From the IMG/VR virus record IMGVR_UViG_3300045579_000116, positions 1-33,850 of that record: a stretch of DNA of 33,850 nucleotides; one strand, given 5' to 3'. This document shows positions 1-33,850 of this stretch, one piece after another; position 1 is the stretch's first letter, and every line of letters starts with the position of its first letter. The DNA is from a virus. Made by a program: the position numbers and the translations under genes. Under the pieces are notes generated by a model. That model had not been told where the DNA came from. It saw nothing but the letters and a program-made list of their open reading frames with translations, and did no database searches.

Positions 1-47
1 CGGGTTCGGGGAGACTGTGATTGAGGTCTGTTTATTAAATATACAAA

Positions 48-5486: not shown

Positions 5487-5650
5487 TGCCTTACGCAATC
5501 CGCAAAACACCAACAGGATGGGCCAAGGTCAAAGTGTACCCTGGGCAGGAATCGGTCGTCTCTCACCACAAGACCCGCGAAGATGCCATCGCAGCGATCC
5601 GCGCCTACTACGCCAACAAGCGGAAACTCCAGAACCGAATGAGCAAATGA
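5486..5650 (+). CDS. Small conserved-type phage protein, unknown function
   Basis: 54 aa, MPYAIRKTPTGWAKVKVYPG, ending in a helix with AIAAIRAYYANK. The pattern (a beta hairpin of basic and aromatic residues, then a helix with AIRALYA-like sequence) recalls short proteins beside portal or protease genes in many phages. No function is established. It is coupled on both sides: its ATG shares a base with the portal TGA, and its TGA overlaps the protease ATG. Tight coupling makes it likely to be real despite its size. Confidence 0.7.
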   Translation: MPYAIRKTPTGWAKVKVYPGQESVVSHHKTREDAIAAIRAYYANKRKLQNRMSK

Positions 5651-18874: not shown

Positions 18875-20629
18875 ATGCCGAACTTCATCCGCCAACTCCG
18901 AAAGGCCACGTCGGGAACCCCTCCAATCGAGGGCATTCCGTCGGGCGTCCTGATCGTTAACACAGCAGACCAAACGCTCTCGTTCCCGAACGCAGCGGGG
19001 AATGGATGGGTGACGTTTCAAGCGGGGGCGTCGGCGCCATCGTTTGCACTGCAACAGTTTACGTTCACTGGAAACGGAGCGCAGACGGTCTTCACCACGA
19101 CGTCCACCGACTCGACGGACGACCATTTCGTCGTGGCCATCGGTGGTGTCTTCCAAACCGCTGGCGATGACTACACGGTCGCAGCTGGCGTTGTGACGTT
19201 TACGAGCGCACCTCCGAGCGGGGAGAAGATCAACATCCTCGTGGCGTCCGGCGGAGTTGCTGGGCCGCAGGGTCCGATTGGCGCGACTGGTGTCGGATCG
19301 CAAGGGCCGGTCGGTGCAACTGGAGTTGCTGGCGAAATCGGCGCAACGGGACCTAGTGGAGCAGATGGGGCCACCGGCATCGCTGGACCACAAGGTGCGA
19401 CTGGACACGTTGGCGCATCGGGCGCAACGGGACCATCTGGACCGCAAGGCGAAGTGGGAGCACCGGGGCCGACTGGACCGCAAGGCGAACCGGGATCACC
19501 TGGAGGTGCAACAGGTGCCACTGGCCCATCGGGGGCCGTCGGCGAGCAAGGGCCGCAGGGCAACGTCGGCGAGGCTGGGCCAACTGGCGCAACAGGGCCT
19601 AGCGGGGACGTTGGACCCACGGGTGTTGACGGGCAGGTCGGAGCAACAGGTGTCGCAGGTCCAAGCGGAGAGCAAGGACCTTCGGGGCCAGCGGGAGATG
19701 CAGGCGCTACAGGGCCACTCGGCGCAACAGGTGCAACAGGCGCAACAGGTGCATCGGCACTTTGGAACTACACCGCCGCTTTTGACCTCGGAGTCAGCTA
19801 TGCTGTTGGAGATTTGGCGACCTACGAGGGAAACCTTTGGTATCGCACCGATGCAAACGGCGGCAACACCGGCGACATCCCAAGCACGATGTCCGCATTC
19901 TGGGACTTGATCGCGAGCCGTGGAGCAAATGGAGCAGCTGGCAATGACGGCGCAACAGGTGTCGGCTCCACCGGTGCAACTGGTATCGCAGGCACCATTT
20001 TTTATGGGGGAACCGACGCACCCTCTCCATCGCTTGGCAAAGATGGTGACGTCTATTTTCAGGAGATGCCTGAGTCTGACAACTACGACGACGTGCAGAC
20101 GGTGTCGGTTTTTGTCAAAGCGTCCAACGAGTGGAATTCATCGCTCAACATGCGTGGTGGCCGCGGTGCCACTGGTGCCACTGGCGACGTTGGACCTAAA
20201 GGGGATCAGGGTTTTCCCGGTCCCGCAGGACCGAGCGGGATGCAGGGTCCCGAGGGAAATCCGGGCATGCCGGGACCGAGCGGGATGCAAGGTCCCGAGG
20301 GGCCACCCGGGTTTCCCGGGGACACCGGCGAACAGGGGCCAGAGGGGCCACGAGGTGCCACCGGACCAGTTGGTGATCCCGGAGCGACCGGCGCAACAGG
20401 ACCAGCTGGCATTGACGGCATCGACGGTGCGGTCGGTGCAGTCGGTGCAACTGGACCCGACGGCGAAAAGGGCGCCACGGGATCCACGGGGATCACCGGG
20501 GAGCAAGGCGCAACAGGCGCAACAGGACCCAACTGGACCGTCTCTGAGGAGACCCCATCAAACACCGTGGTGCCAGCGGGTTATTTCGATGCAGGAAACG
20601 GGAAGTTGGTGCCATTTTACACCGTATGA
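18875..20629 (+). CDS. Collagen-like tail fibre with inserted CBM-like domain
   Basis: 584 aa. An N-terminal beta domain (1-125) has [14 protein letters not shown] and [20 protein letters not shown], typical of fibres. Then comes a first block of Gly-X-Y triplets (about residues 127-293, one short break at GVGSQG), then [29 protein letters not shown] and FWDLIA (about 296-345), which resemble a carbohydrate-binding module of the CBM5/12 type. A short spacer leads to a second Gly-X-Y block (about 428-555) and a small C-terminal tip ([20 protein letters not shown]). Such triplets form triple-helical stalks. No lyase or peptidase motif is seen. Confidence 0.85.
19255..19757 (+). repeat. Collagen-like Gly-X-Y repeat block 1
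   Basis: DNA coding for more than 50 Gly-X-Y triplets, dominated by GAT, GPS, GPQ and GPT types, with one register break. The DNA is correspondingly repetitive (many ggcgcaacagg-like units), so assembly errors and length variation are possible. Confidence 0.85.
20155..20535 (+). repeat. Collagen-like Gly-X-Y repeat block 2
   Basis: Second triplet block in the same fibre. It has a short internal duplication ([11 protein letters not shown] occurs twice, about 20 residues apart) and more GFP, GPE and GPP triplets than block 1, so the two blocks are not recent copies of each other. Confidence 0.85.
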
Positions 20630-23616
20630 CGAAAGTTTCGAATAGCTTACTCAAGGACGCGGGCACGACGGGAAAGGAACTCATCACCGCGGCATCCGCA
20701 TCCGCCGCACGCTCAACCCTCGAACTCGGGACCGCTGCAACGACCGCTGCGTCAGATTACGCAGCCGCAAACCACACCCACTCGACGGCACAGATTAGTG
20801 GCCTTGCAACAGTGGCCATCTCAGGCTCTTACAATGACTTGACAAACAAGCCGACCTCAAGCGGGGTGACGTTTGCCAAAACAAAGGTCGTCGGAGTGGA
20901 CGCTGCAACCATCCAAGGTTGCATCGATCTTGTGACAGGTGCGACCGGACTCAACCAGACCCAGATCCTCATCCCGCCGGGCGTGTACGCCGAGAACTTG
21001 ACGCTCAAACCTTGCGTCTCGCTCGCGTCCACCGGAGGCAACAACGGGCAAGGGTCCGTCGTGAGGATCAACGGCTACCACACTTGCCAAGGGTCCGCGA
21101 CCGCTGGCGATTCCATCCTCGAGCTCAATGGTTTACGCTTCGACACCAACACCACCAACCCCGTTCTCACGCTGACGGCCAACGGGTCGACCAAGTTCTT
21201 GGTCCACATGCAGGATTGCATGGTTGGCAACTCCAACAGTTCGACGGCGGTGGTTGGCGTGCAGATCAACGCCAACGTGTCAGTCCGCGCTGCAAACGTG
21301 CGAAGCGTGGCCAACTCAACCGCCGGTGCAGGTGGCACTCACTGGGACGTCAACGGCGGAAGTCTCTACCTCGAGAGATGCTCGGGCGAGTTCGGGACTG
21401 GCGCGATCTTGATGCGCGGAACCAACGGAGCGCTCACACCTTACGTCGAGTGCAAATGGTCGAACTACATCACCAACGGCGCCAACGCCATCAGCATCAC
21501 GTCCGCCACGGCGCTGCTCACGATGGGATGGTCCGCGTTTCAAAATCTCGCGACGACGGGCAACGGCATCTCCATCGCCGCGGGCTCAGTTGCTGGAGTG
21601 TTCAACTCGACGTTCACGGTGGTTTCTGGTGCGTCAAACTACGTCGTGACGGGTGATGCGGGCTCTGTGCTGTACCAACAAAATAACAACTACAGCAACG
21701 CACCGTACGCGACTTACGAGACCAAAATCAATTCGCTGGTCACGCAATTCACTTATTCGCCGAGCCGGCTGAACCTAGGGCAGACCGCAACGCCGAGCGC
21801 ACCGAACGGGGGCGAGGCGTGGCTTTCGTCGTCCAATATCCTTACTTGGTACGGGCAGAACTCGACGCAGTACACAGCAGCCGCTTTGTCGGTGGCCAAC
21901 CAGTTCACCGCGCAGCAACAACTCAACAGCGGGCTCAAGCTAACAAGCTCGAGCGGACCGACGATCACCGCCGGGGCGAACACCCCGGAGGGAGCCGTGA
22001 CCGCGCCTGTTGGTTCACTTTTCCTCCGCACTAATGGAGCGGCCAACACGACGCTCTACGTAAAACAAACCGGCTCCGGCAACACTGGATGGACTGCCAC
22101 TGCACCGGCTGCCATTACGCAGTTGACCGGAGACGTGACAACCAGCACGGGTGGCGGATCTCAGGCAGCCACTCTCGCGACATTGGCGGGTCTGACAAGT
22201 GGTCAGTACGGCACCGCGTCGAGCGTGCCGCAGATTACGGTCAACGCAAAGGGGCTCACCACACTTGCCACCAATGTTGCCATCGCGATTACAACTGCTC
22301 AGGTAACAGGATTAAGCGCAACCGCTTTAGGAGCCATCACGCAACTCACAGGAGACGTGACAACGAGCACTGGCGGAGGATCACAAGCGGCAACGCTCAA
22401 GACTTTGTCCGGGCTCACGAGCGGGCAGTACGGAGGCGCCGCATCGGTGGCGCAGGTGACGGTCAACGAAAAGGGTTTGACCACCGCAGCCTCGAGCGTC
22501 CCGATTGCCATCACCACCGCTCAAATCACCGGCCTCAACGCGGCAGCCGTGCAGGCGCTGGCTCTGACGGGAGGAACGGTTTCCGGATCGCTTTCGGTGT
22601 TGACGACTGGCTCGGTCGCATCGTTGACCGCGACCCAATCCGCGACGGGGACAGGCTCAGGACTCACGGTCGACATCAACAACACCTCTTCAACCGCGGC
22701 TGCAGTCCGGATCACCAACCAAGGGCTCGGTGCCACTCTGCTCATTGAGGATTCGCCGAATCCGGATGCCACTCCGTTTATCATCACGACTTTGGGCAAC
22801 GTCGGAATCGGAACTTTAGCGCCCACCGCAAAAGTGGACATCGCTGCTGGAGACTACAGCAGCAACCAAAATTTTGGACTGCAAATCAGCACCTACAACC
22901 ACGAGTGGGTCAGCGCGGTTAAACTCAAGTCCGACACCTTTGGACAGTCGCGGCTTGCATTTGAGGTGCCGCTCAATCCAACAGGAGGGGTGCTTGAGGC
23001 GATGTCCATCGATGGTCAACATGGCAACGTCAGAATTGGCCAAGGTGCAAATTTTGCCCCAGCAACAGCACCCAAGCTCTACGCCATCGCATCCACTGCT
23101 TATGCAGCACTTAAAGCTGAGCAACTCTCAACAGGACCAACCATTGAGATCCTCAACACGACGGCAGCGACCACAGACTGTGTGACCATCACAAATCTGG
23201 GATCTGGAAACAGTCTCGTGGTCAATGACGACACGGTCCCAGACTCGACACGGTTTGCAATCTCCGCAAGTGGGCGGGTTGGTATTGGCACAACACCCGA
23301 TGCAACAGTGGCGCTCACCCTGGACTCGACGGGGATCAAGTTTTCCGACGGAAGCACTCAGGTCGGCGGGTTTTTTACGGGCTCAGCAACGTACGACGCG
23401 CCGTCGCTTGCAGCTGGTGCGTCGACCACCACCACCGTCACGTGCACTGGTGCGTTAACCAGCCACTTTGCTCAGGCGACTTTGTCGAGCAACACTGGTT
23501 TAACCATCAACGCGTTTGTCTCCGCGGCCAACACGGTGACCGTGCAACTCCGCAATGACACCGCATCGACCATCGACCTAGCGAGCGGAACGCTCAAGGT
23601 GCGCGCCTCTCAGTAA
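20626..23616 (+). CDS. Large tail fibre / spike, beta-helix type
   Basis: 996 aa, the largest protein of the window. The N-terminal 60 residues carry [20 protein letters not shown] and NDLTNKP, classic fibre motifs. Residues about 85-380 resemble a right-handed beta helix ([29 protein letters not shown], many Asn/Ser/Gly turns and evenly spaced strands), a fold used by host-polysaccharide-binding spikes. Residues about 496-643 are two tandem 74-residue repeats. The C-terminal third has [16 protein letters not shown] and [19 protein letters not shown], stalk-like motifs that often precede an S74 peptidase, but no S74 domain is visible. ATGA coupling ties it to the collagen-like fibre. Confidence 0.8.
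22111..22554 (+). repeat. Two tandem 222-bp repeats in the fibre gene
   Basis: Units 22111-22332 and 22333-22554, each 74 codons and in frame. Both start [20 protein letters not shown] and contain LTSGQYG, a VTVN/ITVN-x-KGLTT segment and an AITTAQ-V/I-TGL end. The DNA has diverged at many third positions, so the duplication is not recent. Confidence 0.85.
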
Positions 23617-23642
23617 ACGCGGACTGGCCTGCCTAAAGACTC

Positions 23643-23688
23643 AACCCCTAGGCTGGAGAGCATGACAACTCTCCACTGCCTAGGGGTT
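23643..23688 (+). promoter_or_regulatory. Hairpin enclosing the glycosyltransferase start codon
   Basis: AACCCCTAGGC (23643-23653) pairs perfectly with GCCTAGGGGTT (23678-23688), and GGAGAG (23655-23660) with CTCTCC (23669-23674). The 17 pairs are interrupted only by a 1 x 3 internal loop. The 8-base loop (23661-23668) holds the ATG of the next gene. GGAGAG is also the only Shine-Dalgarno-like sequence, and it is in the stem. No T run follows, so it is not an intrinsic terminator. A translation-control role is inferred. Confidence 0.75.
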
Positions 23689-24807
23689 CCTCACACGGTG
23701 ACGCATCCTGATTACTCCGCTTGTGCATTCACCCAGAAAGTCTTGAAGTTCTTGGAGATGTTCAAGGACTCGAGCGAGTACCGCACGATCCACTACGGAC
23801 ACCCAGACTCCATCACATCCGCTCACGAGCACGTCAACGTCACCTCTCGTGACATCCTGCAAGAGACCTACGGCGATTACGACTGGAGGAGAAACCAGTT
23901 CAAGCACTCGTCACAAGACCTTGCACATCGGGCGTTTAACCTCATCGCAGGAGAGGCAATCAAGCGACGGAAGAAGAAAGGCGACATCGTGCTGGCTTTC
24001 TGGGGTGGGACGCAGGAAGCGACTCACATCGCCAACGCTGAAAAGGATCTCATCATCGTCGAGCCGGGCATCGGCAGTGGCCATGCGTTCGCTCCTTTTC
24101 GCTGTTACGAGTCGTATCCGCTCCGCTCGGCATTCGTCGGGACTGAGGGCGTCTCCTACTGCAATCCAAAGTGGTACTGGAGGGTCGTGCCGAACTACTT
24201 CGACACGCGCAACTTTGACCCCACGCAAAAGCGAGAGGATTACGCGCTGTTCATCGGTCGCCTAGGCACGAACAAGGGATTGGACATCGCAATCGATGCG
24301 TGCAAGCGGATGGGGATTAGGCTCAAGGTCGCTGGCCAAGGAGGGCCCGAGGGCATCGGATTAAAGGAGTGGCCGGAGCACGTCGACTTCATCGGCTACG
24401 CTGGCATCGAGGAGCGCAAAGAGTTGATGGCCAAGGCTCAGTTCGGGTTTCTTCTCTCGACCTACTGGGAGCCGTTTGGCGGGACCGCTGTCGAGATGAT
24501 GCTCTCTGGGTGCGTTCCGATTTGCTCCGACATGGGTGCCATGACTGAGTACATAGTGGATGGCGTCAACGGGTTCCGGTGCTCGACGATGGGCGACATC
24601 CTGCGAGCGATCCGCATCGGCTACCGCATCGACCGAGCGAAGATGGTGGCGTTTGCTCAGGCGAATTTCTCGCTCGACGCGGTGAGACCAAAGTTCGAGC
24701 GAGCGTTTGCCGACTTCCGGGACGTGTTCAGCGGTGCAGGTTGGTATGAGGACCACAACCGGCCTTTCACGGTCGGCTACGGGTTGGATTACTCGCCACT
24801 CAGTTGA
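23662..24807 (+). CDS. Glycosyltransferase, GT-B fold, GT4-like
   Basis: 381 aa. The C-terminal half has the GT4-type signatures: YALFIGRLGTNKGLDIAIDA (about 193-212), RLKVAGQGG, and the nucleotide-sugar site STYWEPFGGTAVEMMLSG (about 268-285) with the two Glu residues spaced as in the E-x7-E motif, followed by VPICSDMGAMTEYIVDGVNG. The N-terminus MTTLHCLGVPHTV and CAFTQKVLKFLEMF resembles viral and bacterial GT-B proteins. It would move a sugar from a nucleotide donor to an unknown acceptor. It lies between the fibre genes and the lysis cassette, so virion proteins or host surface glycans are more likely targets than DNA, but this is inference. Its start is inside a hairpin loop. Confidence 0.85.
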   Translation: MTTLHCLGVPHTVTHPDYSACAFTQKVLKFLEMFKDSSEYRTIHYGHPDSITSAHEHVNVTSRDILQETYGDYDWRRNQFKHSSQDLAHRAFNLIAGEAIKRRKKKGDIVLAFWGGTQEATHIANAEKDLIIVEPGIGSGHAFAPFRCYESYPLRSAFVGTEGVSYCNPKWYWRVVPNYFDTRNFDPTQKREDYALFIGRLGTNKGLDIAIDACKRMGIRLKVAGQGGPEGIGLKEWPEHVDFIGYAGIEERKELMAKAQFGFLLSTYWEPFGGTAVEMMLSGCVPICSDMGAMTEYIVDGVNGFRCSTMGDILRAIRIGYRIDRAKMVAFAQANFSLDAVRPKFERAFADFRDVFSGAGWYEDHNRPFTVGYGLDYSPLS

Positions 24808-24823
24808 TGGCGGACAGTAGGGT

Positions 24824-25312
24824 GTGGACTGGAAATCATTGTTACCAACGATCGGACGGGCCCTAGGTGGCCCACTCGCAGGCATGGCCGTCGAGGCTGT
24901 CGGCAAAGCTATTGGGATCAGTGAGCCAACGAGTGCTAAGGTGCAAGATGCTCTCGACGGGAACACGCTCACCGACGCGCAGATCGTGGCATTACGCGAA
25001 GCCGACGCTCAACTGAAGGTGCGGATGCGCGAACTCGACATCGACCTCGAGAGACTGGCCACGCAGGACCGAGACAGCGCGAGGACGATGCAAGCGAAAC
25101 TGAACAGCCGCGTGCCAGCCGTGCTCGCTCTCGTCATCACGACCGGATTCTTCGGTGTCCTTGCCGGTCTGCTTACCGGACACTTTGACCTTTGGGACAA
25201 CGCGGGAATCACCATGCTCATCGGGTCACTGGCAACCTCCTGGGGCATGGTCGTCTCGTTTTATTACGGGTCAGCTGCAAACATTGGCGGGAGGCCACCG
25301 GAGAAGAAATGA
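24824..25312 (+). CDS. Holin-like membrane protein (3TM holin type)
   Basis: 162 aa with a GTG start (an in-frame TAG lies just upstream). The N-terminal half is soluble and helical, with an amphipathic LPTIGRALGGPLAGMAVEAV segment and an acidic-basic helix ending DIDLERLATQDRDSARTMQA. Two membrane segments follow: VPAVLALVITTGFFGVLAGL (about 106-125) and ITMLIGSLATSWGMVVSFYY (about 135-154). The DRDSAR motif before the first segment is common in phage holins of the 3TM / gene-transfer-agent type, which release endolysin. It is the first of four membrane proteins before the endolysin. Confidence 0.78.
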   Translation: MDWKSLLPTIGRALGGPLAGMAVEAVGKAIGISEPTSAKVQDALDGNTLTDAQIVALREADAQLKVRMRELDIDLERLATQDRDSARTMQAKLNSRVPAVLALVITTGFFGVLAGLLTGHFDLWDNAGITMLIGSLATSWGMVVSFYYGSAANIGGRPPEKK

Positions 25313-25638
25313 ACCTCAAGGAGTACGGCATCGACATCGCCTTTCTATGCGCCGGGCTTTTCGGGGCCGTCCTCACGACTGGAAAAAACGCCGCACGCAA
25401 CCTCGGGAGCACCATCTCCTCGCTCGTGGCCGGTGCCGCAGCCGCGAACTACCTCACCCCGGTCGTGGTGCAGCTGGTCAAGGTCGAGGGGGAACGCACG
25501 CAGTACGCAATCGCATTCCTCCTCGGGTTTGTTGGTCTTCGAGCCGTCGAGTTCGCAAGCCGCAAACTGATCCCACACTCCATCACCGAAGAACACCATG
25601 AACCCGAACCTGCTCACACTCGCAAACGGAGTCGCTAA
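25309..25638 (+). CDS. Small membrane protein in lysis cassette (holin-like)
   Basis: 109 aa from the ATGA-coupled start at 25309. Likely membrane segments are IDIAFLCAGLFGAVLTTG (about 7-24), TISSLVAGAAAANYLTPVVV (about 34-53) and YAIAFLLGFVGLRAVEF (about 65-81). The tail is hydrophilic, ending HTRKRSR. Three segments with a basic C-terminus fit a class I-like holin, but the preceding gene is a better holin candidate, so this may be a regulator, second holin or antiholin. The last 41 bases overlap the next gene. Confidence 0.65.
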   Translation: MNLKEYGIDIAFLCAGLFGAVLTTGKNAARNLGSTISSLVAGAAAANYLTPVVVQLVKVEGERTQYAIAFLLGFVGLRAVEFASRKLIPHSITEEHHEPEPAHTRKRSR

Positions 25639-25984
25639 CGCGCTGATAGCGTTGGGTGGGATTGCGTTTGTCCTGTTCGTCTTCGGGCGACCAGAGTCAA
25701 AAATCTACGAGTCTCCGAAGATTGCAAAGATGATGAAGCTCGGGCTTTCGCTCGTGTCGGTTGGGGCACTGCTCAACATCGTCACATTCTCAACGCCGCC
25801 GGTCTCGGAAATCGTGCTTAACTTCGGCCTCGGGCTCACCTTCGTGCTCGCCGCCGTGTGGCACTTTCAAACCTTTGTCCGCCATCAACAAACGAAAACC
25901 GATGAACTTCGAAAACTCAAACCCGCACGACATGCTCGTCGTACCAAGCGTCAACATCGCCGCGCTGATGCTCGGGTTGACTGA
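25598..25984 (+). CDS. Membrane protein in lysis cassette
   Basis: 128 aa with three likely membrane segments: GVANALIALGGIAFVLFVFG (about 11-30), MKLGLSLVSVGALLNIVTF (about 46-64) and EIVLNFGLGLTFVLAAVWHF (about 71-90). The last 35 residues are strongly basic (RHARRTKRQHRRADAR) and lie largely in the overlap with the next gene. Function unknown; the setting suggests lysis control. It starts 41 bases before the end of the preceding gene, and the overlap with the following gene is 83 bases. Confidence 0.6.
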   Translation: MNPNLLTLANGVANALIALGGIAFVLFVFGRPESKIYESPKIAKMMKLGLSLVSVGALLNIVTFSTPPVSEIVLNFGLGLTFVLAAVWHFQTFVRHQQTKTDELRKLKPARHARRTKRQHRRADARVD

Positions 25985-26075
25985 GGTGCACCAGCTGGTC
26001 AGCATCGGTGCAGCATTGGCAGCACTGGTCTATACGGTGCTGAAAATCGTCCAACTCTACCGAGACTTAAAATGA
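25902..26075 (+). CDS. Short single-span membrane protein, lysis cassette
   Basis: 57 aa (MNFENSNPHDMLVVPSVNIA onward) with a hydrophobic span VSIGAALAALVYTVLKIVQL and a short basic end. A second in-frame ATG at 25932 would give 47 aa and reduce the overlap with the previous gene. Its TGA overlaps the endolysin ATG, so the two are probably coupled. A short holin or pinholin-like role, or an antiholin, is possible; no lipobox is seen, so it is not an obvious spanin. Confidence 0.6.
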   Translation: MNFENSNPHDMLVVPSVNIAALMLGLTEVHQLVSIGAALAALVYTVLKIVQLYRDLK

Positions 26076-26677
26076 CCCTTTCAGACAAAGGCCGCAAACT
26101 CCTGCTCGACTACGAAGTCGGCGGTGGCGAACCGTATTACCGGAAATTTCTATCTCGGCCAACGTGGCCGGGGGAGCAATCGGGCGTCACCATCGGTGTC
26201 GGATTTGACCTCGGCTACAACACCGAGAGTCAAGTGGGAGAGGCGTGGGGCACATTGTCCAACACCAGCCTCGAACTCCTCATGGGTGCAATCGGGATCC
26301 GTGGAGAGAGTGCTCGTTTGTGGCTCTCCTCGAGGCCAATGGTACGCGACATCGAAGTGCCTTGGGACAAGGCTCTCGACGTGTTCGAGCGCATCACCGT
26401 CCCACGTTTTTACCTACAGATGTTGAGGGTTTACCCACAAGCGGAGACTCTGCCAGCACCTGCTCGAGATGCTCTGCTCTCGCTCGTCTTCAACCGTGGC
26501 ACTGCGCTTTCTGGAGATCGTCGAGCCGAGATGCTCGGGATCCAAAATGCTCTCCGTGACGGTCGAACGCACGACGTCCCGCAGCTGCTCCGCTCGATGC
26601 GCCGACTCTGGCCAAACACGACGGGTCTCCAAAAACGCAGGGACGCCGAAGCTGACCTGTTTGAGAGTGCGTTGTGA
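26072..26677 (+). CDS. Endolysin (lysozyme/pesticin-like muramidase)
   Basis: 201 aa. The N-terminus has LLLDYEVGGGEPYYRKFLSR then PTWPGEQSGVTIGVGFDLGY, a recognised pattern of phage muramidases of the T4-lysozyme/pesticin type. Glu15, Thr40 and Asp46 are the likely catalytic Glu-Thr-Asp set. The rest is helical, with ARDALLSLVFNRGTALSG as a typical lysozyme C-lobe helix. It cuts the glycan strand of peptidoglycan. There is no signal peptide, so it should need a holin; four membrane proteins lie directly upstream. ATGA coupling joins it to the last of these. Confidence 0.85.
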   Translation: MTLSDKGRKLLLDYEVGGGEPYYRKFLSRPTWPGEQSGVTIGVGFDLGYNTESQVGEAWGTLSNTSLELLMGAIGIRGESARLWLSSRPMVRDIEVPWDKALDVFERITVPRFYLQMLRVYPQAETLPAPARDALLSLVFNRGTALSGDRRAEMLGIQNALRDGRTHDVPQLLRSMRRLWPNTTGLQKRRDAEADLFESAL

Positions 26678-26693
26678 CCGCTTGAGTGGTACA

Positions 26694-26710
26694 GGGTTGC
26701 AATGCAACCC
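26694..26710 (+). promoter_or_regulatory. Perfect dyad over the HTH gene start (possible operator)
   Basis: GGGTTGCA-A-TGCAACCC: two perfect 8-base arms around one base, with the ATG of the following gene at 26702-26704 inside it. As DNA it has the form of a site for a dimeric repressor; as RNA its one-base centre makes a tight hairpin unlikely without opening a few pairs. I saw no second copy in the window. Confidence 0.5.
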
Positions 26711-27267
26711 GCCGACTGGACACCTGAGGACCTCGACACCCCTGCCGAACAACTCGCCGAGCGATTCGGGATCTCGGTTGCAACCGCTCAACGGATGGCC
26801 GACTGGCACCAAGCCGAGTTGGCCAATCACGTCGAGAGGACATCCCAGCCGCATCGGCCGCGCACCTGCACCGGATTCTCGCGTGGATGCTCGGTCCCGG
26901 GGATGCCAAGGCGAAAGCGGTGGCCTTGTGTTTCGCTGCCGATCTCCAGCCATTGATTGGATGGCACAACCTTTCTGAGGCCGCGACGGATCTCGGGATG
27001 ACGTCAGCCAACCTCTCCAAACTGCAGACGGAAATCCAAGCGTGGCTGGCACTTCCAGAGACGCAATGGAACAAAACCAAGTATCGTTTCAAACAGTCTA
27101 ACCAGCCCATCCTCAAGGAGATGCCGACGGTCGAGAGGGTAGCGCAATCGTTCAGACGATGGGTTCAACGTGTTGATGTGGAGAAACTTACCGCAGACCA
27201 AAAGGAACGCATCATCGCTTCCCTCGCGGAGATTGTCCTATTTTCGCAAAGCCTAGAGGAGCAATGA
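26702..27267 (+). pseudogene. HTH-type DNA-binding protein, apparently frameshifted
   Basis: Two overlapping frames together read as one protein. Frame one from ATG 26702 gives WTPEDLDTPAEQLAERFGIS and VATAQRMADWHQAELANHVE, an HTH-like segment, then turns into Arg/Pro/Cys-rich nonsense to 26956. The -1 frame, open from 26728 to 27267, continues sensibly from about 26836 as EDIPAASAAHLHRILAWMLG, then CFAADLQPLIGWHNLSEAAT and DLGMTSANLSKLQTEIQAWL, a second HTH-like motif. The join needs one lost base, a sequencing error or a ribosomal shift; no standard slippery heptamer is at the join. An alternative is a separate short gene from ATG 26887. Position before the early region suggests a regulator. 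Confidence 0.6.
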
Positions 27268-27351
27268 TTTAAGCGACGGTTGACGGGCTTGGTTTTGTGT
27301 GGGACGATTTTCCGTGTTCATCCGGTGCTTGACCGGGATGTCTGGTATGCT

Positions 27352-27383
27352 CCGGTGCGGGAGGATGGGGCCTCCCGCATCGG
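27352..27383 (+). other. GC-rich hairpin in the early leader region
   Basis: CCGGTGCGGGAGG pairs with CCTCCCGCATCGG with one G-U pair and a six-base loop (ATGGGG). With no T run it is not a typical intrinsic terminator on either strand; it could be a Rho-dependent stop aid, an RNA processing site or the mark of a decayed terminator. Confidence 0.6.
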
Positions 27384-27438
27384 TAACCGCCTCAAACTCA
27401 ACGAGTTTGCAGGGCATAAAAAAAGATGAAAAAAACTG

Positions 27439-27467
27439 TGGACAGAAAACGAGAAATGTTGTTTACT
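27439..27467 (+). promoter_or_regulatory. Candidate sigma70-type promoter for early operon
   Basis: TGGACA (27439-27444), a 17-base spacer, then TTTACT (27462-27467), which match 5 of 6 and 4 of 6 bases of the -35 and -10 consensus. The site lies about 55 bases before the first early gene, in a locally AT-rich stretch. It assumes the host uses a standard housekeeping sigma factor. Confidence 0.4.
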
Positions 27468-27521
27468 GGTGGAAGTTGAGGGGCGGAGACCCCGAGACGA
27501 AACAACCAACCAGACAACAAA

Positions 27522-27743
27522 ATGAGCATCGAACCAACAAACCTCGGAAAACCAGCAACCCTCCACGTCGAGGCAATCATCGGCGACCGTCAAATCGGAA
27601 TCGCAATCGTGGATGGGCACCTTGTCCAATGCATCAACCGCAAGTGGTCGCATCAAAATCCAAAGCCGGGGATGACGATCGAGGAGGCAGCAAACGGCGC
27701 AGCGGCAATGCTCCTCACAAAAGGCGGAGTCAAGTTTGCATAA
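27522..27743 (+). CDS. Hypothetical early protein
   Basis: 73 aa, not recognised. It is mixed alpha/beta: GKPATLHVEAIIGDRQIGIA and IVDGHLVQCI form likely strands, and EEAANGAAAMLLTKGG a helix. First gene after the control region. Its leader is A/C-rich (accagacaacaaa) with no Shine-Dalgarno sequence. Confidence 0.6.
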   Translation: MSIEPTNLGKPATLHVEAIIGDRQIGIAIVDGHLVQCINRKWSHQNPKPGMTIEEAANGAAAMLLTKGGVKFA

Positions 27744-27767
27744 CGCAACCCCACACCACCTCACACC

Positions 27768-27980
27768 ATGCAAACCAACACCCGCACCATCCAAACCGCC
27801 GCAGCCGAACTCACCGCCGCAGGATTTGAAACCCACGTCACCCGCGACGGGTGGATCATCGTCCTAGGTGAAAACTGGGCAGCATCATTTTCGTCCAACG
27901 ACGGAAACGACGTGACCGTCGGCGACGTTCCGCAGGAGGTATTTGACCTCGCGTATTTCGAGACCGAAGCGATGGCCTAA
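27768..27980 (+). CDS. Hypothetical early protein
   Basis: 70 aa, not recognised. TRTIQTAAAELTAAGFETHV is a likely helix followed by strands (GWIIVLGENWAASFSS). The net charge is acidic. The leader is almost only C and A (acaccacctcacacc), without a Shine-Dalgarno sequence. Confidence 0.6.
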   Translation: MQTNTRTIQTAAAELTAAGFETHVTRDGWIIVLGENWAASFSSNDGNDVTVGDVPQEVFDLAYFETEAMA

Positions 27981-28002
27981 TCCAACCCCATCAACCCCTA
28001 AC

Positions 28003-28024
28003 CAACTCAACACCATGACAACCA
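28003..28024 (+). repeat. 22-base translation-start repeat, copy 1
   Basis: CAACTCAACACCATGACAAC plus CA. It is identical to bases 28364-28385 and places the ATG at the same point in both copies, so the second and third start regions share a recent origin or a common initiation signal. Confidence 0.8.
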
Positions 28025-28362
28025 CCAAAGGATTTGCTCAACTCGTCCAAGCGATTGCAGACATGATGGACGGCCCTGCTAACACCAACACGACCGGCAT
28101 CACCCTCCATCGAGATCTGGGTTGGTGCGCCACCTTTCAGGCATCGGACATCAACCCCGAGGATGAGATCGCGATTGTCTACAAAAACGACATCATTCAT
28201 ACCGCTCATTGCGCGGAGGAAGAAATCGACCCGCACGGCATCGCCGAGTGGATCCGGGACAACGTGGTCATGTGGATCTGCGATGCTCAAGACCGACTCG
28301 ACGAGCACGGGATCAAAAATCCACAGCTGACCCCTAAAGAGATTGTGGCGCACCTCTCCTAA
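28015..28362 (+). CDS. Hypothetical early protein
   Basis: 115 aa from ATG 28015, chosen because an identical 22-base start region recurs at the next gene. Not recognised. The N-terminal helix GFAQLVQAIADMMDG is followed by a strand region and an acidic patch (CAEEEIDPHGIAEWIRDNVV). An upstream in-frame ATG at 27943 would run through the preceding gene and is unlikely. Confidence 0.65.
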   Translation: MTTTKGFAQLVQAIADMMDGPANTNTTGITLHRDLGWCATFQASDINPEDEIAIVYKNDIIHTAHCAEEEIDPHGIAEWIRDNVVMWICDAQDRLDEHGIKNPQLTPKEIVAHLS

Positions 28363-28363
28363 T

Positions 28364-28385
28364 CAACTCAACACCATGACAACCA
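28364..28385 (+). repeat. 22-base translation-start repeat, copy 2
   Basis: Exact second copy of the start region at 28003-28024, here before the 61-aa membrane protein. The coding sequences that follow differ after the first three to four codons. Confidence 0.8.
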
Positions 28386-28561
28386 AGGCAAAAACCATCC
28401 AATGGGAGGTCCTCCTCGCTCTATCAACCATCGACTTTGTCCTGCTCGGCACCCTCGAGTGGGACGCATGGACAGCCGCGGTCGGCGTGCTCGGTCTCGT
28501 GTCGGCCGCCATCGGGATCACCTACGTCCTTGAAGCCGCGAGAGAGGAGGCTGGTAAATGA
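28376..28561 (+). CDS. Small membrane protein, early region
   Basis: 61 aa from ATG 28376. Two likely membrane segments: WEVLLALSTIDFVLLGTLEW (about 9-28) and AVGVLGLVSAAIGITYVLEA (about 34-53), with a short charged end. Function unknown; early phage membrane proteins can act in superinfection exclusion or host takeover, but no motif shows this. The TGA overlaps the next ATG. Confidence 0.65.
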   Translation: MTTKAKTIQWEVLLALSTIDFVLLGTLEWDAWTAAVGVLGLVSAAIGITYVLEAAREEAGK

Positions 28562-28848
28562 GCACGCAAACCATCCAACACGAGGGCCGAGAGTGGTGTC
28601 TCGTCTCGCCTGAGGACCACGCGACCCTCATCTCGGCTAAGGATGCCGCTCTGTCCATCGCGCAGCGGCTCCTCGTCGCTAAACGCATCGAGACCCCCCA
28701 CGGGGATCTCATGCTAGCACCTAGCAAGAGGTGCCGTCGGTGCAACGGGGACAAGCCGTCCAAGCGAGGGCAACGCTATTGCACGGCATGCTCTCGAATC
28801 AGCCGAGTTGAGTGCATGCGTGCCTACTGGCAAAGGAGGGCAAAATGA
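28558..28848 (+). CDS. Small zinc-finger-like protein
   Basis: 96 aa. The C-terminal half carries CRRCNGDKPSKRGQRYCTAC, a Cys-x2-Cys ... Cys-x2-Cys knuckle that should bind zinc and perhaps nucleic acid, followed by a basic end (MRAYWQRRAK). The N-terminal half is helical. It is coupled by ATGA on both sides; the downstream partner is the RuvC-like nuclease, so a role in DNA processing is plausible. Confidence 0.65.
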   Translation: MSTQTIQHEGREWCLVSPEDHATLISAKDAALSIAQRLLVAKRIETPHGDLMLAPSKRCRRCNGDKPSKRGQRYCTACSRISRVECMRAYWQRRAK

Positions 28849-29300
28849 TTGCCATCGATCCCGGAGTCGCGGGTGGGTGGGCATACGACATGGAGCACGG
28901 CACCGTGGAGTGTTGCCGGATGCCAGAGACCGACGGGGACATCCTGACGGGCCTTCGCAACCTCTACGCGGTCGGCCATCGGGAAATCAGGATGGAGTTG
29001 CCAGCCAAGGCGATCTTCGGCGCAGGGCACTCCTCGCTCGCAGTCCTACACCGCAACGTCGGGTTTATACAAGGGGTGGCGATGGCCATCGGGTTTAGCC
29101 TCATCCTCGTCCAGCCGAAGGCATGGCAAAAGGTCATCGGCCTCTCCAAAAGGCAAGGAGAGGAGCAACGAAAGTGGAAAAACAGACTTAAGGAGGAGGC
29201 ACAGAGACGATTCCCGGGCCTCCACATCACTTTAGCAACGGCGGATGCCGTGCTGATCCTCGCTGCCGGGTTGGCAGCACAAAACAAAACCAGACAGTAG
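28845..29300 (+). CDS. RuvC-like Holliday junction resolvase / RNase H-fold nuclease
   Basis: 151 aa from the ATGA-coupled start 28845. MIAIDPGVAGGWAYD is the RuvC-type first strand with Asp5; IRMELP places a Glu at 51; LATADAVLILAAGL supplies the late Asp at 134. The middle NVGFIQGVAMAIGFSLILVQ then PKAWQKVIGL is typical of phage crossover-junction nucleases. It would cut branched DNA before packaging or in recombination. The ORF could start at 28812, but that would overlap the zinc-finger gene by 37 bases. Confidence 0.82.
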   Translation: MIAIDPGVAGGWAYDMEHGTVECCRMPETDGDILTGLRNLYAVGHREIRMELPAKAIFGAGHSSLAVLHRNVGFIQGVAMAIGFSLILVQPKAWQKVIGLSKRQGEEQRKWKNRLKEEAQRRFPGLHITLATADAVLILAAGLAAQNKTRQ

Positions 29301-29305
29301 AAAAC

Positions 29306-30040
29306 ATGAACAACGAAAATAAACCACTGGCCCTGTTCGCAGGGGTGAACGACCCCGTCGGGGCCGCAATGCAACTAGGTGAGGCCTTTGCCTCGAGCGG
29401 GATGTTCGGGTGCACCAAACCCGCGCAAGGGGCCATCCTCGCGCTCCAATGCCTGACCTCGGGCCTGACCCCGTTTGAGGTGACCCAGACCTATCACTTG
29501 TTGGACGGGAAACTGTCCATGAAGGCCGATGCCATGCTTGGCCGGTACAAGGCCGCAGGAGGCAAGGTGATCTGGGGGACGCGAACCGCCGAGCGGGTCA
29601 AGGCTCGGTGGGTCTACGGTGAGAACGACCTCGAAATGGAGGTCACGATGCAGGAGCTGGTGGCCAACGGGGTCGCCCTGGGCAAGGGAGGCGAGTTGAA
29701 AGAGAACTACAAGCGGCACCCTCGCCAAATGCTGACCGCTCGTCTCATCTCAGAGGCAGTGCGGTTGCTCGCACCGGAGGTCGTGAGCGGGATTTACACT
29801 CCCGAGGAAGTCAGCGACTTCGGCATCATCGAGCGAGTCGAAAAACCCGCTCAGGCGCAGGTCGTAACACCGGAGGCGTTGCCACCGGCTGAAGATCCAG
29901 AGCAAGAGTTTAGGGACATGCTCGGGGAGCATTACACGTCCGCACTCGCGTTTTTCAAAACGGACTTGCTCACGCTCCTCAACGCTAAAGTCCAAAAGGA
30001 CATCCGCACTCGCACCGCTGACCTCATCTCCAAACTGTAA
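29306..30040 (+). CDS. RecT-like single-strand annealing protein
   Basis: 244 aa. GLTPFEVTQTYHLLDGKLSM (about 53-72) followed by a strand with KVIWGTRTAERVKARW, then ENYKRHPRQMLTARLISEAV, LLAPEVVSGIYTPEE (about 133-167), is the pattern of RecT/Bet-type annealing proteins, where the late helix reads R-x-x-S-x-x-x-R-x-L-x-P. The C-terminal about 70 residues are acidic and helical. It would pair ssDNA for recombination-dependent replication. No partner exonuclease is seen in the window; the SSB-like gene follows directly. Confidence 0.72.
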   Translation: MNNENKPLALFAGVNDPVGAAMQLGEAFASSGMFGCTKPAQGAILALQCLTSGLTPFEVTQTYHLLDGKLSMKADAMLGRYKAAGGKVIWGTRTAERVKARWVYGENDLEMEVTMQELVANGVALGKGGELKENYKRHPRQMLTARLISEAVRLLAPEVVSGIYTPEEVSDFGIIERVEKPAQAQVVTPEALPPAEDPEQEFRDMLGEHYTSALAFFKTDLLTLLNAKVQKDIRTRTADLISKL

Positions 30041-30046
30041 ACCACC

Positions 30047-30547
30047 ATGTTCAAAATCGACCGAAACGCAGCACCGGAGAGTTCGTGGATTAAGACTCCG
30101 GGCATCTACTCAGGCACCATCAAGTTTCCGAACGAGATTGAGTGTACGCCGAAAGGCGAGATGAAGATCCGCCTCGAGTTCGTCACGGAGTCTGGAGCAA
30201 AGGCCACCGATGACATTATCAACGCTGAGAGTCTCTGGTGGAAACTGAATGTCCTGCTCGCCGCGGCTGACCCCGACGGGAGCAAGATCAACATCCCCAA
30301 CGGCCAGAGCGCGGACTTCTCGAAAAACTCAAACTTTATCGAGTTTGTGAAAAAGTTCGATGGGCTGTGGGTGACATTTGCCATCTACCTTGAGACGTAC
30401 CAGAAAAAGGACGGATCGCAGGGGACGGCCACGAGGCTCAGGCCAATGGACCCGAGGAAGGGCAAAACGCAACTGCCAGCGAAGGCACTTGAGCAGATCA
30501 AAAAAGCCGAGGAGGAGGCCGAGGGACCGGATGAGGTGCCGTTTTAA
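30047..30547 (+). CDS. SSB-like protein (DUF669-type) with acidic tip
   Basis: 166 aa. The N-terminal domain is beta-rich: TPGIYSGTIKFPNEIECTPK, MKIRLEFVTESGAKATDD, and LWVTFAIYLETYQKKDGSQG, consistent with an OB-type or DUF669-like ssDNA-binding protein. The C-terminus is EEAEGPDEVPF, close to the acidic DDDIPF tip by which bacterial SSB recruits partners. Between RecT-like and replication genes, this fits a phage SSB. DUF669 similarity is from memory of pattern, not from a search. Confidence 0.65.
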   Translation: MFKIDRNAAPESSWIKTPGIYSGTIKFPNEIECTPKGEMKIRLEFVTESGAKATDDIINAESLWWKLNVLLAAADPDGSKINIPNGQSADFSKNSNFIEFVKKFDGLWVTFAIYLETYQKKDGSQGTATRLRPMDPRKGKTQLPAKALEQIKKAEEEAEGPDEVPF

Positions 30548-30550
30548 GCC

Positions 30551-30805
30551 ATGCAACCGCAGCAACTCGACAACCTAATCAGGCAAGCCATGAGCACCGT
30601 CGAAGCAATCAAGACCGAGGTAAGAGCAGTGCTCTTGTCCTCGGAGTACCGGAGCCAACTCCGAGAAATCGTGCGGGACGAACTGACCGACGAACTCCGC
30701 GATCAAGGGAAGCATCCCGACGCGCTCGCGTTCGAGGTCCGGTTTCTCCGCCGCGAACTCGAAGCAATGACCAAGCAACTCGCAGCAATAAACGAAATCC
30801 AATGA
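30551..30805 (+). CDS. Hypothetical helical protein
   Basis: 84 aa, all helical and highly charged: LREIVRDELTDELRDQGKHP then FEVRFLRRELEAMTKQLAAI. The last 35 residues could form a coiled coil. Not recognised. Lies 3 bases after the SSB-like gene, and its TGA overlaps the next ATG. Confidence 0.6.
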   Translation: MQPQQLDNLIRQAMSTVEAIKTEVRAVLLSSEYRSQLREIVRDELTDELRDQGKHPDALAFEVRFLRRELEAMTKQLAAINEIQ

Positions 30806-31122
30806 CACAAGAACTTAGGGAACTGCGGCCGGTGTTCGCCGACATGATGAACAACGTGTTCCGCATCGTGAACGACAAACCAGTGAGGGACGTATCTTAT
30901 GACGTCGCCTATTGGGACTTGGTTAACCGGATTGGGAAACTCGAACAGTGGGCAACATGGCGCACCAATCAAGCGACGGCCATCGAACAGTTTATCGGCA
31001 ACCCCGAGATCACGGAGACGGTCGAAAAGCTGATGCGTATCTTGTTGAGCGCGAGGAAACAGTGGGTTGACCCCACGGAGTTTCATCAACTCTCGGCGCA
31101 CCTCAAAACCCTACTGAAATGA
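30802..31122 (+). CDS. Hypothetical helical protein
   Basis: 106 aa, helical, not recognised. It contains VAYWDLVNRIGKLEQWATWR and ETVEKLMRILLSARKQW, with no catalytic motif. It is coupled by ATGA to both neighbours. Confidence 0.6.
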   Translation: MTQELRELRPVFADMMNNVFRIVNDKPVRDVSYDVAYWDLVNRIGKLEQWATWRTNQATAIEQFIGNPEITETVEKLMRILLSARKQWVDPTEFHQLSAHLKTLLK

Positions 31123-31217
31123 ACAACCTTCACCGCCTCGGGGCTGGCATCATGGCCGTCATTCTTGTCACCGTGTTCGTTGGCCTCGTGGCGGTGGGAT
31201 CCTCAAAACGAAAATGA
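31119..31217 (+). CDS. 32-residue single-span membrane microprotein
   Basis: MNNLHRLGAGIMAVILVTVF then VGLVAVGSSKRK. One membrane span of about 18 residues (GIMAVILVTVFVGLVAVG) with a basic end. Its ATG overlaps the previous TGA and its TGA overlaps the next ATG, so it fits perfectly into the chain of coupled genes, which argues for a real gene. Role unknown. Confidence 0.6.
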   Translation: MNNLHRLGAGIMAVILVTVFVGLVAVGSSKRK

Positions 31218-31444
31218 AATCCACACTCTACGCAGATCCGAAATCCATGCTGTTCTGGATCGACGCTAACGTCGAAATGCCCAAGCGTGACATCCCGGTG
31301 ATCGTCCTAGTTCGAGACGGCAAGCGGACATTCTGCACGCCGTCACATCGCATGGCCTTTGCATGGTCAGGCATCAAATCGCCGAGCGTCGTGACCCATT
31401 GGGCCGCGATGCCGAAACCACCAATCATCGGAGAAAACGAATGA
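31214..31444 (+). CDS. DUF551-like small protein
   Basis: 76 aa. MLFWIDANVEMPKRDIPVIV then LVRDGKRTFC and, at the C-terminus, VVTHWAAMPKPP. The opening W-x-x-x-x-x-x-P pattern and the closing THW-x-x-x-P-x-P-P are typical of DUF551, a family often found in phage early regions and of unknown function. Coupled by ATGA at both ends. Confidence 0.65.
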   Translation: MKSTLYADPKSMLFWIDANVEMPKRDIPVIVLVRDGKRTFCTPSHRMAFAWSGIKSPSVVTHWAAMPKPPIIGENE

Positions 31445-31611
31445 AAATGCGCGATCAAATCGAGCGACTTGAGCAACAGGTGGCCAACCTCCGCGAGGCT
31501 TTTGCGGAACTCTGGGGCAGCGTCTCGCTCTACCTCTCAGCCGAGCAGATTGAGAGTCTCAAAACCTACCATGCCGAGGAGTTTGCCGAACTGGAGGAAG
31601 ACGAGCAATGA
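31441..31611 (+). CDS. Hypothetical coiled-coil protein
   Basis: 56 aa from the coupled ATG at 31441 (MKMRDQIERLEQQVANLREA). Heptad-like Leu spacing suggests a coiled coil; the C-terminus is acidic (EEFAELEEDEQ). Function unknown. It neighbours a second coiled-coil protein to which it may bind. Confidence 0.6.
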   Translation: MKMRDQIERLEQQVANLREAFAELWGSVSLYLSAEQIESLKTYHAEEFAELEEDEQ

Positions 31612-31913
31612 ACACTGAACTGCTAGAAAACGGGGCCGCATCGGAACTCATCGAGGATCTGGTGGCCGAGTTGGCGAGCGTCGTTAAACGCCTCGAGGCA
31701 GCAAACAAGGACTACTGGGGCCTGATGGATGCCTTTAATCGCCTCACTAGGACCTGTCAGGATTTACAACAGCACAACGCCCAACTGCACGACAAGCTGA
31801 AGGAGGCTTATGATGCTGCCAACCCGATGACCCTCGTGGAGAGGGGCAAACACAAGGCGTTGCAAACCATGTACGACGCAGCACTCGAGGAGATCAAACG
31901 ATTGAAGAACTGA
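31608..31913 (+). CDS. Hypothetical coiled-coil protein
   Basis: 101 aa, helical throughout with heptad-like spacing (LIEDLVAELASVVKRLEAAN; LQQHNAQLHDKLKEAYDAAN). Not recognised. It precedes the primase-helicase by 25 bases and could be an accessory factor such as a loader, by position only. Confidence 0.6.
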   Translation: MNTELLENGAASELIEDLVAELASVVKRLEAANKDYWGLMDAFNRLTRTCQDLQQHNAQLHDKLKEAYDAANPMTLVERGKHKALQTMYDAALEEIKRLKN

Positions 31914-31938
31914 CCTCGGAGCAGGTCAAAAAACAACC

Positions 31939-33822
31939 ATGCTGACACCGTATGAACGCGCCGCATCCTACGCGGCCAAGGTACCCGGGGCCATCTCCGG
32001 GCAGGGAGGCCACTCGGCCACCTACGACCTTGCCAGAGTACTGGCTCACGACTTCGCGTTGAGCGAGGCCGAGAGTCTCCAGATCCTCGAACAGTGGAAC
32101 CAGCGGTGCTCGCCACCGTGGAGTCGAAAAGAACTCGAGCACAAGGTCCGACAAGCCGCGACGAAGCCACACAACAACCCGCGAGGGTCGAAGTTGGACA
32201 CGCACCAGACTGTCAGTCCGACGGGGAGGTTCATCGTCAACCGCAATGCGGCACCCGTTGACCTGTCAGGTGATGACTCGTCGGCTTCCACGATCCGCTT
32301 CCTTCGCGCTGCGTTCCTTCCGGGGGAACTGGTGTGCGTTTGCACTCAGGCACTCGAGGACGAGGACGGCAAGCATCGTCCCGGATCGCACGGCACATTC
32401 AAGCCGCTCGAGTGGTTCATCGACCAGATCGAGCAGGGCGACAACGCATTCACTTGCGCCTCGGCCTCGGGGCGATGGATCAGGATTAACCCCTACCGAT
32501 CAGAGAGCACGACGGGGGCGGACTCCAACGTCTCCGCGTACCGCCACGTCCTCATCGAGTTCGACGACCTGCCAGAGGCCGACCAGTTGGCCACGCTCAA
32601 GGCGTCGAACCTACCGCTCACAGCCATCATCTCGAGTGGGGGAAGGTCGTTCCATGGATGGGTCCGCGTTGACGCACCCGACAAGGCAACGTGGGAGGCT
32701 CGTCGTGATCTCGTTTACCAGTACCTCGAGGACGCTGGACCATGTCCCGCGAACAAGAATCCTGGCAGGTTCTCGAGGCTCCCGGGCTGCAAGCGGGGCG
32801 ACCAGTGGCAAAGGCTGGTTTCACTCCGCGAGGGACCGGAGACGTGGGAGGAGTTCGAGGTTTGGCTGAGACGCCGCGATCTGCCACAGGTCATGACGTG
32901 GGAGACGCTCAAGGAGATCCCGATCATGCCGGATCCGACGTGCATTCTCGGTGAGCGATGGCTCTGCAAAGGTGGTTCACTCACCATCGTCTCCTCGTCT
33001 GGTGTGGGCAAATCCTCGTTCTCTTTGCAGTTCGCGACCGCGATGGCCACCGGCGCCCCGTTCTTCGGGATCGCTCACCCGGAAGGCAAACCGATGCGGG
33101 TCGGCATCATTCAAGCCGAGAACGACTGGGGTGATGTGCTCGAGGCCATGTTTGGCTCGGTGCAGTGGTTGCTGACCGCTGGCCGCGGAACCGTCGGGGC
33201 CGGCCAACTCCTAAACGAAAATCTGAAACTGTTTCGAGAAAACACGAAGACGGGCCATGTCTTCCTAGGGATCCTCAGGCAACTCATCAAGGAGCATCGG
33301 CTGGAGGTCGTCATCATCGACCCGCTCATGGCGTTCTTCGGGGGCGACGTGAACGACCAAAAGGGGATGTCGGTCTTCCTCCGCAACACGCTCCAACCAA
33401 TCCTCGAGGAGACCGGATGCGTCGTGGTGCTCATCCACCACACGGCCAAGCCAAAGGCCGAGAAGGCCCAATCCGCGAGCGAGGTGGCCTATCTCGGAGC
33501 GGGTTCGAGCGAACTCACCAACTGGTCCCGCGAGGTGGCCGTACTCCAACGTGAGCCAGATCGGAAGGACGGAAACAAGGCCGCGTTCAGCCTGACTCTC
33601 TGCAAGCGAGCCGGTCGCTCTGGGATGGTTGACGAGGACGGGAACCGTCAGTCAAGAATCCGAATCGATCACTCGACGCAGGGCATTTGGTGGGTCTATG
33701 CACCCCAACTCCCTCCCGATTCCGAGCCCGAGAAAAAGGCGAAAAAGGAGGGTGAATGGACAGCAAACCGAGACCAAAAAAGTCCCGTACCTAAGCGATT
33801 CCGGAAGGAGCAGGGAGAATGA
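31939..33822 (+). CDS. Primase-helicase (AEP-like domain + RepA/DnaB-type ATPase)
   Basis: 627 aa. Residues about 1-75 are a PriCT-like helical domain (YDLARVLAHDFALSEAESLQ; SRKELEHKVRQA). Residues about 100-320 have primase-like signatures: HVLIEFDDLPEADQ (near 200), IISSGGRSFHGWVRVDA (near 230), and GRFSRLPGCKR (near 280). Residues about 340-560 are a RecA-fold ATPase: Walker A SSSGVGKSSFS near 352, Walker B EVVIIDPLMAFFGG near 455, then VVVLIHHTAK near 500. The layout matches phage replication proteins that prime and unwind DNA. The C-terminus is Lys-rich. The DNA-binding origin cannot be seen. Confidence 0.82.
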   Translation: MLTPYERAASYAAKVPGAISGQGGHSATYDLARVLAHDFALSEAESLQILEQWNQRCSPPWSRKELEHKVRQAATKPHNNPRGSKLDTHQTVSPTGRFIVNRNAAPVDLSGDDSSASTIRFLRAAFLPGELVCVCTQALEDEDGKHRPGSHGTFKPLEWFIDQIEQGDNAFTCASASGRWIRINPYRSESTTGADSNVSAYRHVLIEFDDLPEADQLATLKASNLPLTAIISSGGRSFHGWVRVDAPDKATWEARRDLVYQYLEDAGPCPANKNPGRFSRLPGCKRGDQWQRLVSLREGPETWEEFEVWLRRRDLPQVMTWETLKEIPIMPDPTCILGERWLCKGGSLTIVSSSGVGKSSFSLQFATAMATGAPFFGIAHPEGKPMRVGIIQAENDWGDVLEAMFGSVQWLLTAGRGTVGAGQLLNENLKLFRENTKTGHVFLGILRQLIKEHRLEVVIIDPLMAFFGGDVNDQKGMSVFLRNTLQPILEETGCVVVLIHHTAKPKAEKAQSASEVAYLGAGSSELTNWSREVAVLQREPDRKDGNKAAFSLTLCKRAGRSGMVDEDGNRQSRIRIDHSTQGIWWVYAPQLPPDSEPEKKAKKEGEWTANRDQKSPVPKRFRKEQGE

Positions 33823-33850
33823 ATAATCCGTTCTTATTTAATACCTATTC
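33819..33850 (+). CDS. Start of next gene, cut by window end
   Basis: ATG at 33819 overlaps the primase-helicase TGA (ATGA), and aggagcaggga lies 10-20 bases upstream. The first residues are MNNPFLFNTY; the frame is open to the window end. The DNA here is abruptly AT-rich. Product cannot be named. Confidence 0.45.
   Translation, partial: MNNPFLFNTY

Follow-up and report, generated by a model that had tools for sequence, protein, structure and literature searches.

The start of the glycosyltransferase gene in this phage lies inside a strong hairpin, which is best read as limiting translation of the enzyme, for example from read-through fibre mRNA. We put the probability at about 0.6 that the hairpin is a cis-acting translational damper of the glycosyltransferase cassette, which would keep the enzyme low relative to the fibre made from the same message. 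The structure is supported by prediction and by covariation: it is an outlier in strength, it is conserved by compensatory change, and it is inherited together with the gene. The whole stretch of DNA analysed, 33,850 nucleotides long, is referred to as the window, and the features discussed are as follows.

18875 to 20629, + strand: collagen-repeat tail fibre gene (PF01391, E 3.6e-40; tail fibre PHROGs).
20626 to 23616, + strand: long upstream ORF of 996 aa, presumed fibre or adhesin.
23643 to 23653, + strand: outer left arm, AACCCCTAGGC, non-coding, which pairs with 23678-23688.
23654 to 23660, + strand: inner left arm, TGGAGAG, including a weak Shine-Dalgarno (SD)-like GGAG 3 nt from the ATG; folds with 23669-23675.
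23661 to 23668, + strand: 8-nt loop, CATGACAA, with the start codon ATG at 23662-23664 (predicted fold).
23662 to 24807, + strand: glycosyltransferase, GT4-like, phrog_3408 (PF00534, E 2.5e-17; phrog_3408, E 2.2e-99).
23669 to 23675, + strand: inner right arm, CTCTCCA, codons 3-5 (predicted fold).
23676 to 23677, + strand: 2-nt bulge, CT, the site of synonymous CAC/CAT variation (fold and coding alignment).
23678 to 23688, + strand: outer right arm, GCCTAGGGGTT, codons 6-9 (fold and covariation).

Folding prediction confirms a start-enclosing hairpin in the window. Positions 23643-23688 are predicted to form an 18-pair stem, consisting of 11 outer and 7 inner pairs, with an asymmetry in the form of the 2-nt CT bulge on the 3' side (23676-23677), and the ATG (23662-23664) is held in the 8-nt loop. 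A preliminary description of this DNA had placed the ATG in an 8-base loop, as the predicted fold also has it, within a stem of 17 pairs whose right arm lay in codons 6-9. The hairpin stands, but the count is one short (there is an extra T-A pair) and the right arm really spans codons 3-9. The outer right arm uses the rare Leu codon CTA (5% usage). It had also been suggested that the only SD-like site of the gene is locked in the stem. GGAG is indeed in the stem, but its spacing of 3 nt is poor and most genes of the phage lack an SD sequence, and the SD is therefore not central to the hairpin. The same description considered a terminator unlikely because there is no T run, and both the sequence and a scan agree: no U-run directly follows the stem, and an intrinsic terminator was rejected as the identity of the window hairpin. 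A tRNA was likewise rejected by search, and Rfam covariance models gave no match at gathering score for the hairpin region.

The RNA from 23600 to 23720, whose folding had been proposed as a check, has a minimum free energy of -45.7 kcal/mol (z = -3.6), and none of 200 shuffled sequences was as stable. The core hairpin alone accounts for -31.4 kcal/mol, and is the longest short-range inverted repeat of the 33.85-kb window. The first 42 coding nt pair with the 45 nt that precede them at -35.5 kcal/mol (z = -4.2); here the coding side was kept fixed and the upstream 45 nt alone were shuffled, and again none of 200 shuffles was as strong. Opening the region from -15 to +15 at the glycosyltransferase start costs 28.5 kcal/mol. 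At the 33 other putative starts examined the average is 8.5 kcal/mol (sd 4.7, maximum 18.2), and 29 of them are less structured than the mean for random positions. A GGAG, GAGG or AGGA motif at ordinary spacing is present at only about 3 of the 34 listed starts, so that by its listed gene starts in the window the phage is nearly devoid of SD sequences. SD-independent initiation requires an unfolded start (PMC3121790), and the weakly structured, SD-poor starts of this phage appear to fit it, as expected. Against such starts the hairpin is out of character for the phage.

The phrog_3408 profile match covers residues 4-363 of 381, i.e., the full length of the glycosyltransferase. Across 13 relatives neither the first Met nor the motif H-x-L-x-x-P-H-T varies, and the annotated start is therefore very likely right. 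The stop codon of the 996-aa ORF precedes the left arm by 26 nt; Pfam and PHROG searches with this ORF gave no match. The collagen gene (18875-20629) stands two genes upstream of the glycosyltransferase in the window, while other members of the clade have collagen-repeat fibre genes in place of the 996-aa ORF. More widely, GXY-repeat (collagen-like) fibre genes, with Pfam and PHROG support, lie upstream of the glycosyltransferase in most lineages, and in cyanophage ACG-2014f a related enzyme (46% identity) is found downstream of a collagen-repeat gene and before PiuC. From gene order, the collagen-like fibre may be a substrate of the glycosyltransferase. Positions 18875-24807 of the window, and 1-3160 of locus L144, could represent a fibre glycosylation module (with hydroxylation), to which PiuC is linked in ACG-2014f. 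Elsewhere in the window, at 616-1797, a fusion-like protein with ParB-like and DNA methyltransferase PHROG matches adjoins the terminase.

Relatives were collected by scanning viral contigs with the glycosyltransferase protein, which gave 51 loci; DNA-pattern scans for further relatives yielded no new contigs, and a nucleotide search of the phage collection gave no match. The hairpin is kept in 13 distinct leader sequences (the window, the L001-L017 group, L042, and L018-L021). In an alignment of 13 distinct sequences (A2), 95.7% of cells are paired, and four pairs have changed on both sides, namely three of the 11 outer-stem pairs and one inner-stem pair. In L016 an A-U pair has become G-C, and in the inner stem a G-C pair has become A-U; the G-C to A-U pair type occurs in one further row, either L001 or an aligned relative. 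In the L018-L021 group one C-G pair is replaced by G-C and another by U-A. When the alignment was slid as a control, shifts of -3 to +2 gave no both-sided changes and a shift of +3 gave two. Apart from these, every standard change on a single side of the outer stem yields G-U on the mRNA strand, and swapping arms among the window-type, L016 and L018-L021 groups usually weakened the pairing. The covariation evidence is small, comprising four pairs in two or three independent lineages.

The left arm also marks the edge of homology. Aligned by BLAST with the window, L010, L013, L018, L019 and L021 are homologous upstream of the gene only as far as 23643, where the left arm starts; for L016 the limit is 23644. 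The genes preceding the left arm differ. The left arm is therefore part of the glycosyltransferase cassette and does not come with the fibre gene. In L016 a fibre-like gene (4172-6058) homologous to the upstream ORF of the window (20800-21759) is found downstream of the glycosyltransferase, which implies that fibre modules have moved across the cassette of hairpin and enzyme. The preliminary description had argued that the complementarity of the left arm looks selected, and had proposed aligning this junction in related phages to look for paired changes. The four both-sided changes support such selection, as does retention of the arm beside unrelated fibre genes. A conserved N-terminus with a lost left arm, which it had named as contrary evidence, was seen in none of the 13 sequences of the hairpin clade.

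The sequence ATGACAACT at the start codon loop is invariant in 16 distinct coding sequences, and all 13 sequences share TAGGCT within the left arm, 7-8 nt before the ATG. Synonymous change is only marginally suppressed in codons 2-9 (5th percentile), and the case therefore rests on the left arm and the covariation. Pairing of the inner left arm is partly lost in L018, L019 and L021; in the L018-L021 group the inner 7-bp stem is weak, the AUG lies in a larger loop, and the opening cost is 16-18 kcal/mol. In some relatives (L013, L018) extra pairing lengthens the stem to about 22 pairs.

The wider glycosyltransferase family was divided into lineages on a tree of 46 sequences. In lineage C (L037-L039) the hairpin is a different one, of 7 bp, and places the ATG in an 8-nt loop. 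A 10-bp stem encloses the start in lineage D (L043-L047), with a 6-bp hairpin upstream; within lineage D alone (6 sequences) there are no both-sided changes. In L023 and L030 the ATG is contained in an 8-bp stem. The strong hairpins of lineages E (L024-L028) and F (L091-L095) end just before the ATG, mostly with U-runs, and resemble intrinsic terminators. They share with the window hairpin their strength and their position at the fibre/glycosyltransferase junction, but the window hairpin has no U-run and encloses the ATG. No structure was found near the glycosyltransferase start in L031, L034, L101 and L125. Across 23 lineage representatives the start region has a median z of -2.07, with 52% below -2, as against a median of 0.08 and 8% for 121 control starts (Mann-Whitney p = 6.5e-8, which is optimistic since the loci are related). 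Two further observations were made in these leaders. In L087 (1951-2045) a D-type leader and first codons are joined to a G-type enzyme body, an apparent recombination just after the hairpin. Upstream of the start in L035, L088, L097 and L127 there is a second small hairpin, GCAGGC/GCCTGC versus GCAGGT/ACCTGC, showing a compensatory change.

The proposed mechanism is simple. Read-through transcripts from the late fibre gene would carry the non-coding left arm, which would pair with codons 3-9 and shut the AUG in the 8-nt loop. The closed loop would block loading of the 30S subunit, and output of the enzyme would be low compared with the abundant fibre proteins. Such a stem is expected to be strongly inhibitory in a phage that mostly initiates without SD sequences, using unstructured starts. 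Within the clade 15-26 nt separate the fibre stop codon from the left arm, so the terminating ribosome is probably too far off to open the stem. We infer that translation is lowered, with enzyme-to-fibre dosage as the reason, and that the level is fixed rather than switched. The U-run terminators before the ATG in some lineages could be a different route to damping the same gene. Against the damper, the covariation events are few and a template-switch mutation could restore pairing without selection; moreover, the inner stem is weak in L018-L021, several lineages (L031, L034, L101, L125) have no structure near the start, and no release mechanism for the hairpin was seen.

By analogy, the hairpin would fall into the known class of start-sequestering phage hairpins, of which those of T4 e, soc and I-TevI seem the closest; that of gene e cuts synthesis 100-fold (PMC3014915). 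In T4 e, soc, 49 and I-TevI and in Aeh1 mobE, as proposed here, a gene that read-through transcripts reach has its start region sequestered in a stable stem, and the product is accessory or timed. The feature common to the T4 e type, an AUG and/or SD in a stable RNA helix, is present in the predicted structure. The T4-type hairpins usually hide an SD, whereas the window phage is SD-poor, and where studied a phage late promoter at their left strand produces transcripts that lack the hairpin, whereas no such promoter was found here.

This last comparison bears on the reading that the hairpin is a timing switch of the T4 gene e or I-TevI type, with read-through transcripts carrying the left arm silent, and a promoter in or next to the left arm giving short or leaderless transcripts that are translated. 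The geometry is as in T4 e, soc, 49, I-TevI, segB and Aeh1 mobE (PMC3014915; PMC2988022), and the invariant TAGGCT is located where a leaderless gene could have its -10 element. However, there is no sigma-70-like site on the + strand in 20000-33850 (a sigma-70 pattern may not fit the phage promoter), no conserved sequence upstream of -19 across the clade, and no left-arm motif in lineages C and D. Nor is the left-arm motif clearly enriched in the window, with 8 matches (at most 2 mismatches) against 4 expected. A timing switch is thus unlikely, though worth keeping in mind. The left arm was also rejected as a repeated phage motif, two of the 8 matches being the hairpin's own arms.

A second reading is that the hairpin is the target of a regulatory protein. 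In the MS2 replicase operator a start-codon hairpin can limit translation and is bound sequence-specifically by a protein; a repressor could act here in the manner of MS2 coat protein, or an activator could melt the stem as Com does on mom in phage Mu. The loop (CATGACAA/GATGACAA) is nearly invariant, and a precedent exists in Mu mom, a modification gene whose start is sequestered in a structure that a phage protein opens (PMC6483171). The start codon is held in an RNA stem in both cases, but in Mu the Com activator binds a separate hairpin next to that structure. The loop here is coding and hence under protein constraint. As with MS2, the hairpin is at the start codon, but the arm sequences diverge completely between lineages; the hairpins at the same place in other lineages are unrelated in sequence and have no common binding motif, which argues against one shared operator. 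We regard a protein target as improbable.

It is no more probable that the hairpin is an mRNA processing or 3'-end element, either an RNase III-type site or a stem protecting the fibre mRNA, which would affect enzyme translation only incidentally. It is a bulged stem between genes of a polycistronic message (of the extended length noted above in L013 and L018), and other lineages have terminators at the same junction. It lacks a U-run, however, and cleavage within the right arm would disrupt codons 6-9. Nor would an element of this kind have to coincide with the start codon, whereas the loop holds the ATG clade-wide and in lineages C and D.

At the DNA level, the repeat could be a joint for module exchange, or a quasi-palindrome maintained by template switching without RNA function. 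Homology stops at the arm, there is exchange of fibre modules around the cassette, and template switching can yield compensatory change. On the other hand, a shared joint need not be complementary to codons 3-9, the 2-nt bulge has stayed unpaired, the one-sided standard changes in the outer stem all give G-U on the mRNA strand, and the enrichment of start-region structure reaches beyond the clade. This makes a purely DNA-level origin very unlikely. The preliminary description had also raised an RNA thermometer, with which the position of the start codon within the hairpin would agree, and a switch in which GCCTA (23631-23635) pairs with the complementary TAGGC in the arm; both are highly improbable, because in the model the stem does not melt in the physiological range, with about 90% of outer-arm bases still paired at 85°C, and because the forced alternative fold is 15.5 kcal/mol worse and GCCTA is confined to the window, L001 and L007/L008, being missing from most relatives.

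Scanning bacterial genome contigs with the glycosyltransferase alignment revealed no bacterial home of the gene. A terminase scan gave one match (39% identity), in a Verrucomicrobia MAG (Pedosphaera) in which only distant glycosyltransferases are present, and this is a weak lead to the host.

The hairpin is a covariation-supported candidate regulatory RNA in a group of SD-poor phages known solely from metagenomes, and it is located where a probable virion-modifying enzyme comes after structural genes. If the damper reading is true, these phages set the ratio of enzyme to substrate inside one transcript without SD tuning, and translational and transcriptional forms of the limiter are interchangeable. 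A broader proposal, which we offer only tentatively and consider rather doubtful, is that a glycosyltransferase modifying collagen-like fibres travels with its own expression limiter, built independently as a start hairpin or a terminator, so that the enzyme is scarce relative to its substrate in SD-independent hosts. As a hypothesis, the findings point to a link of collagen-like fibres with a glycosyltransferase family that is common in phages.
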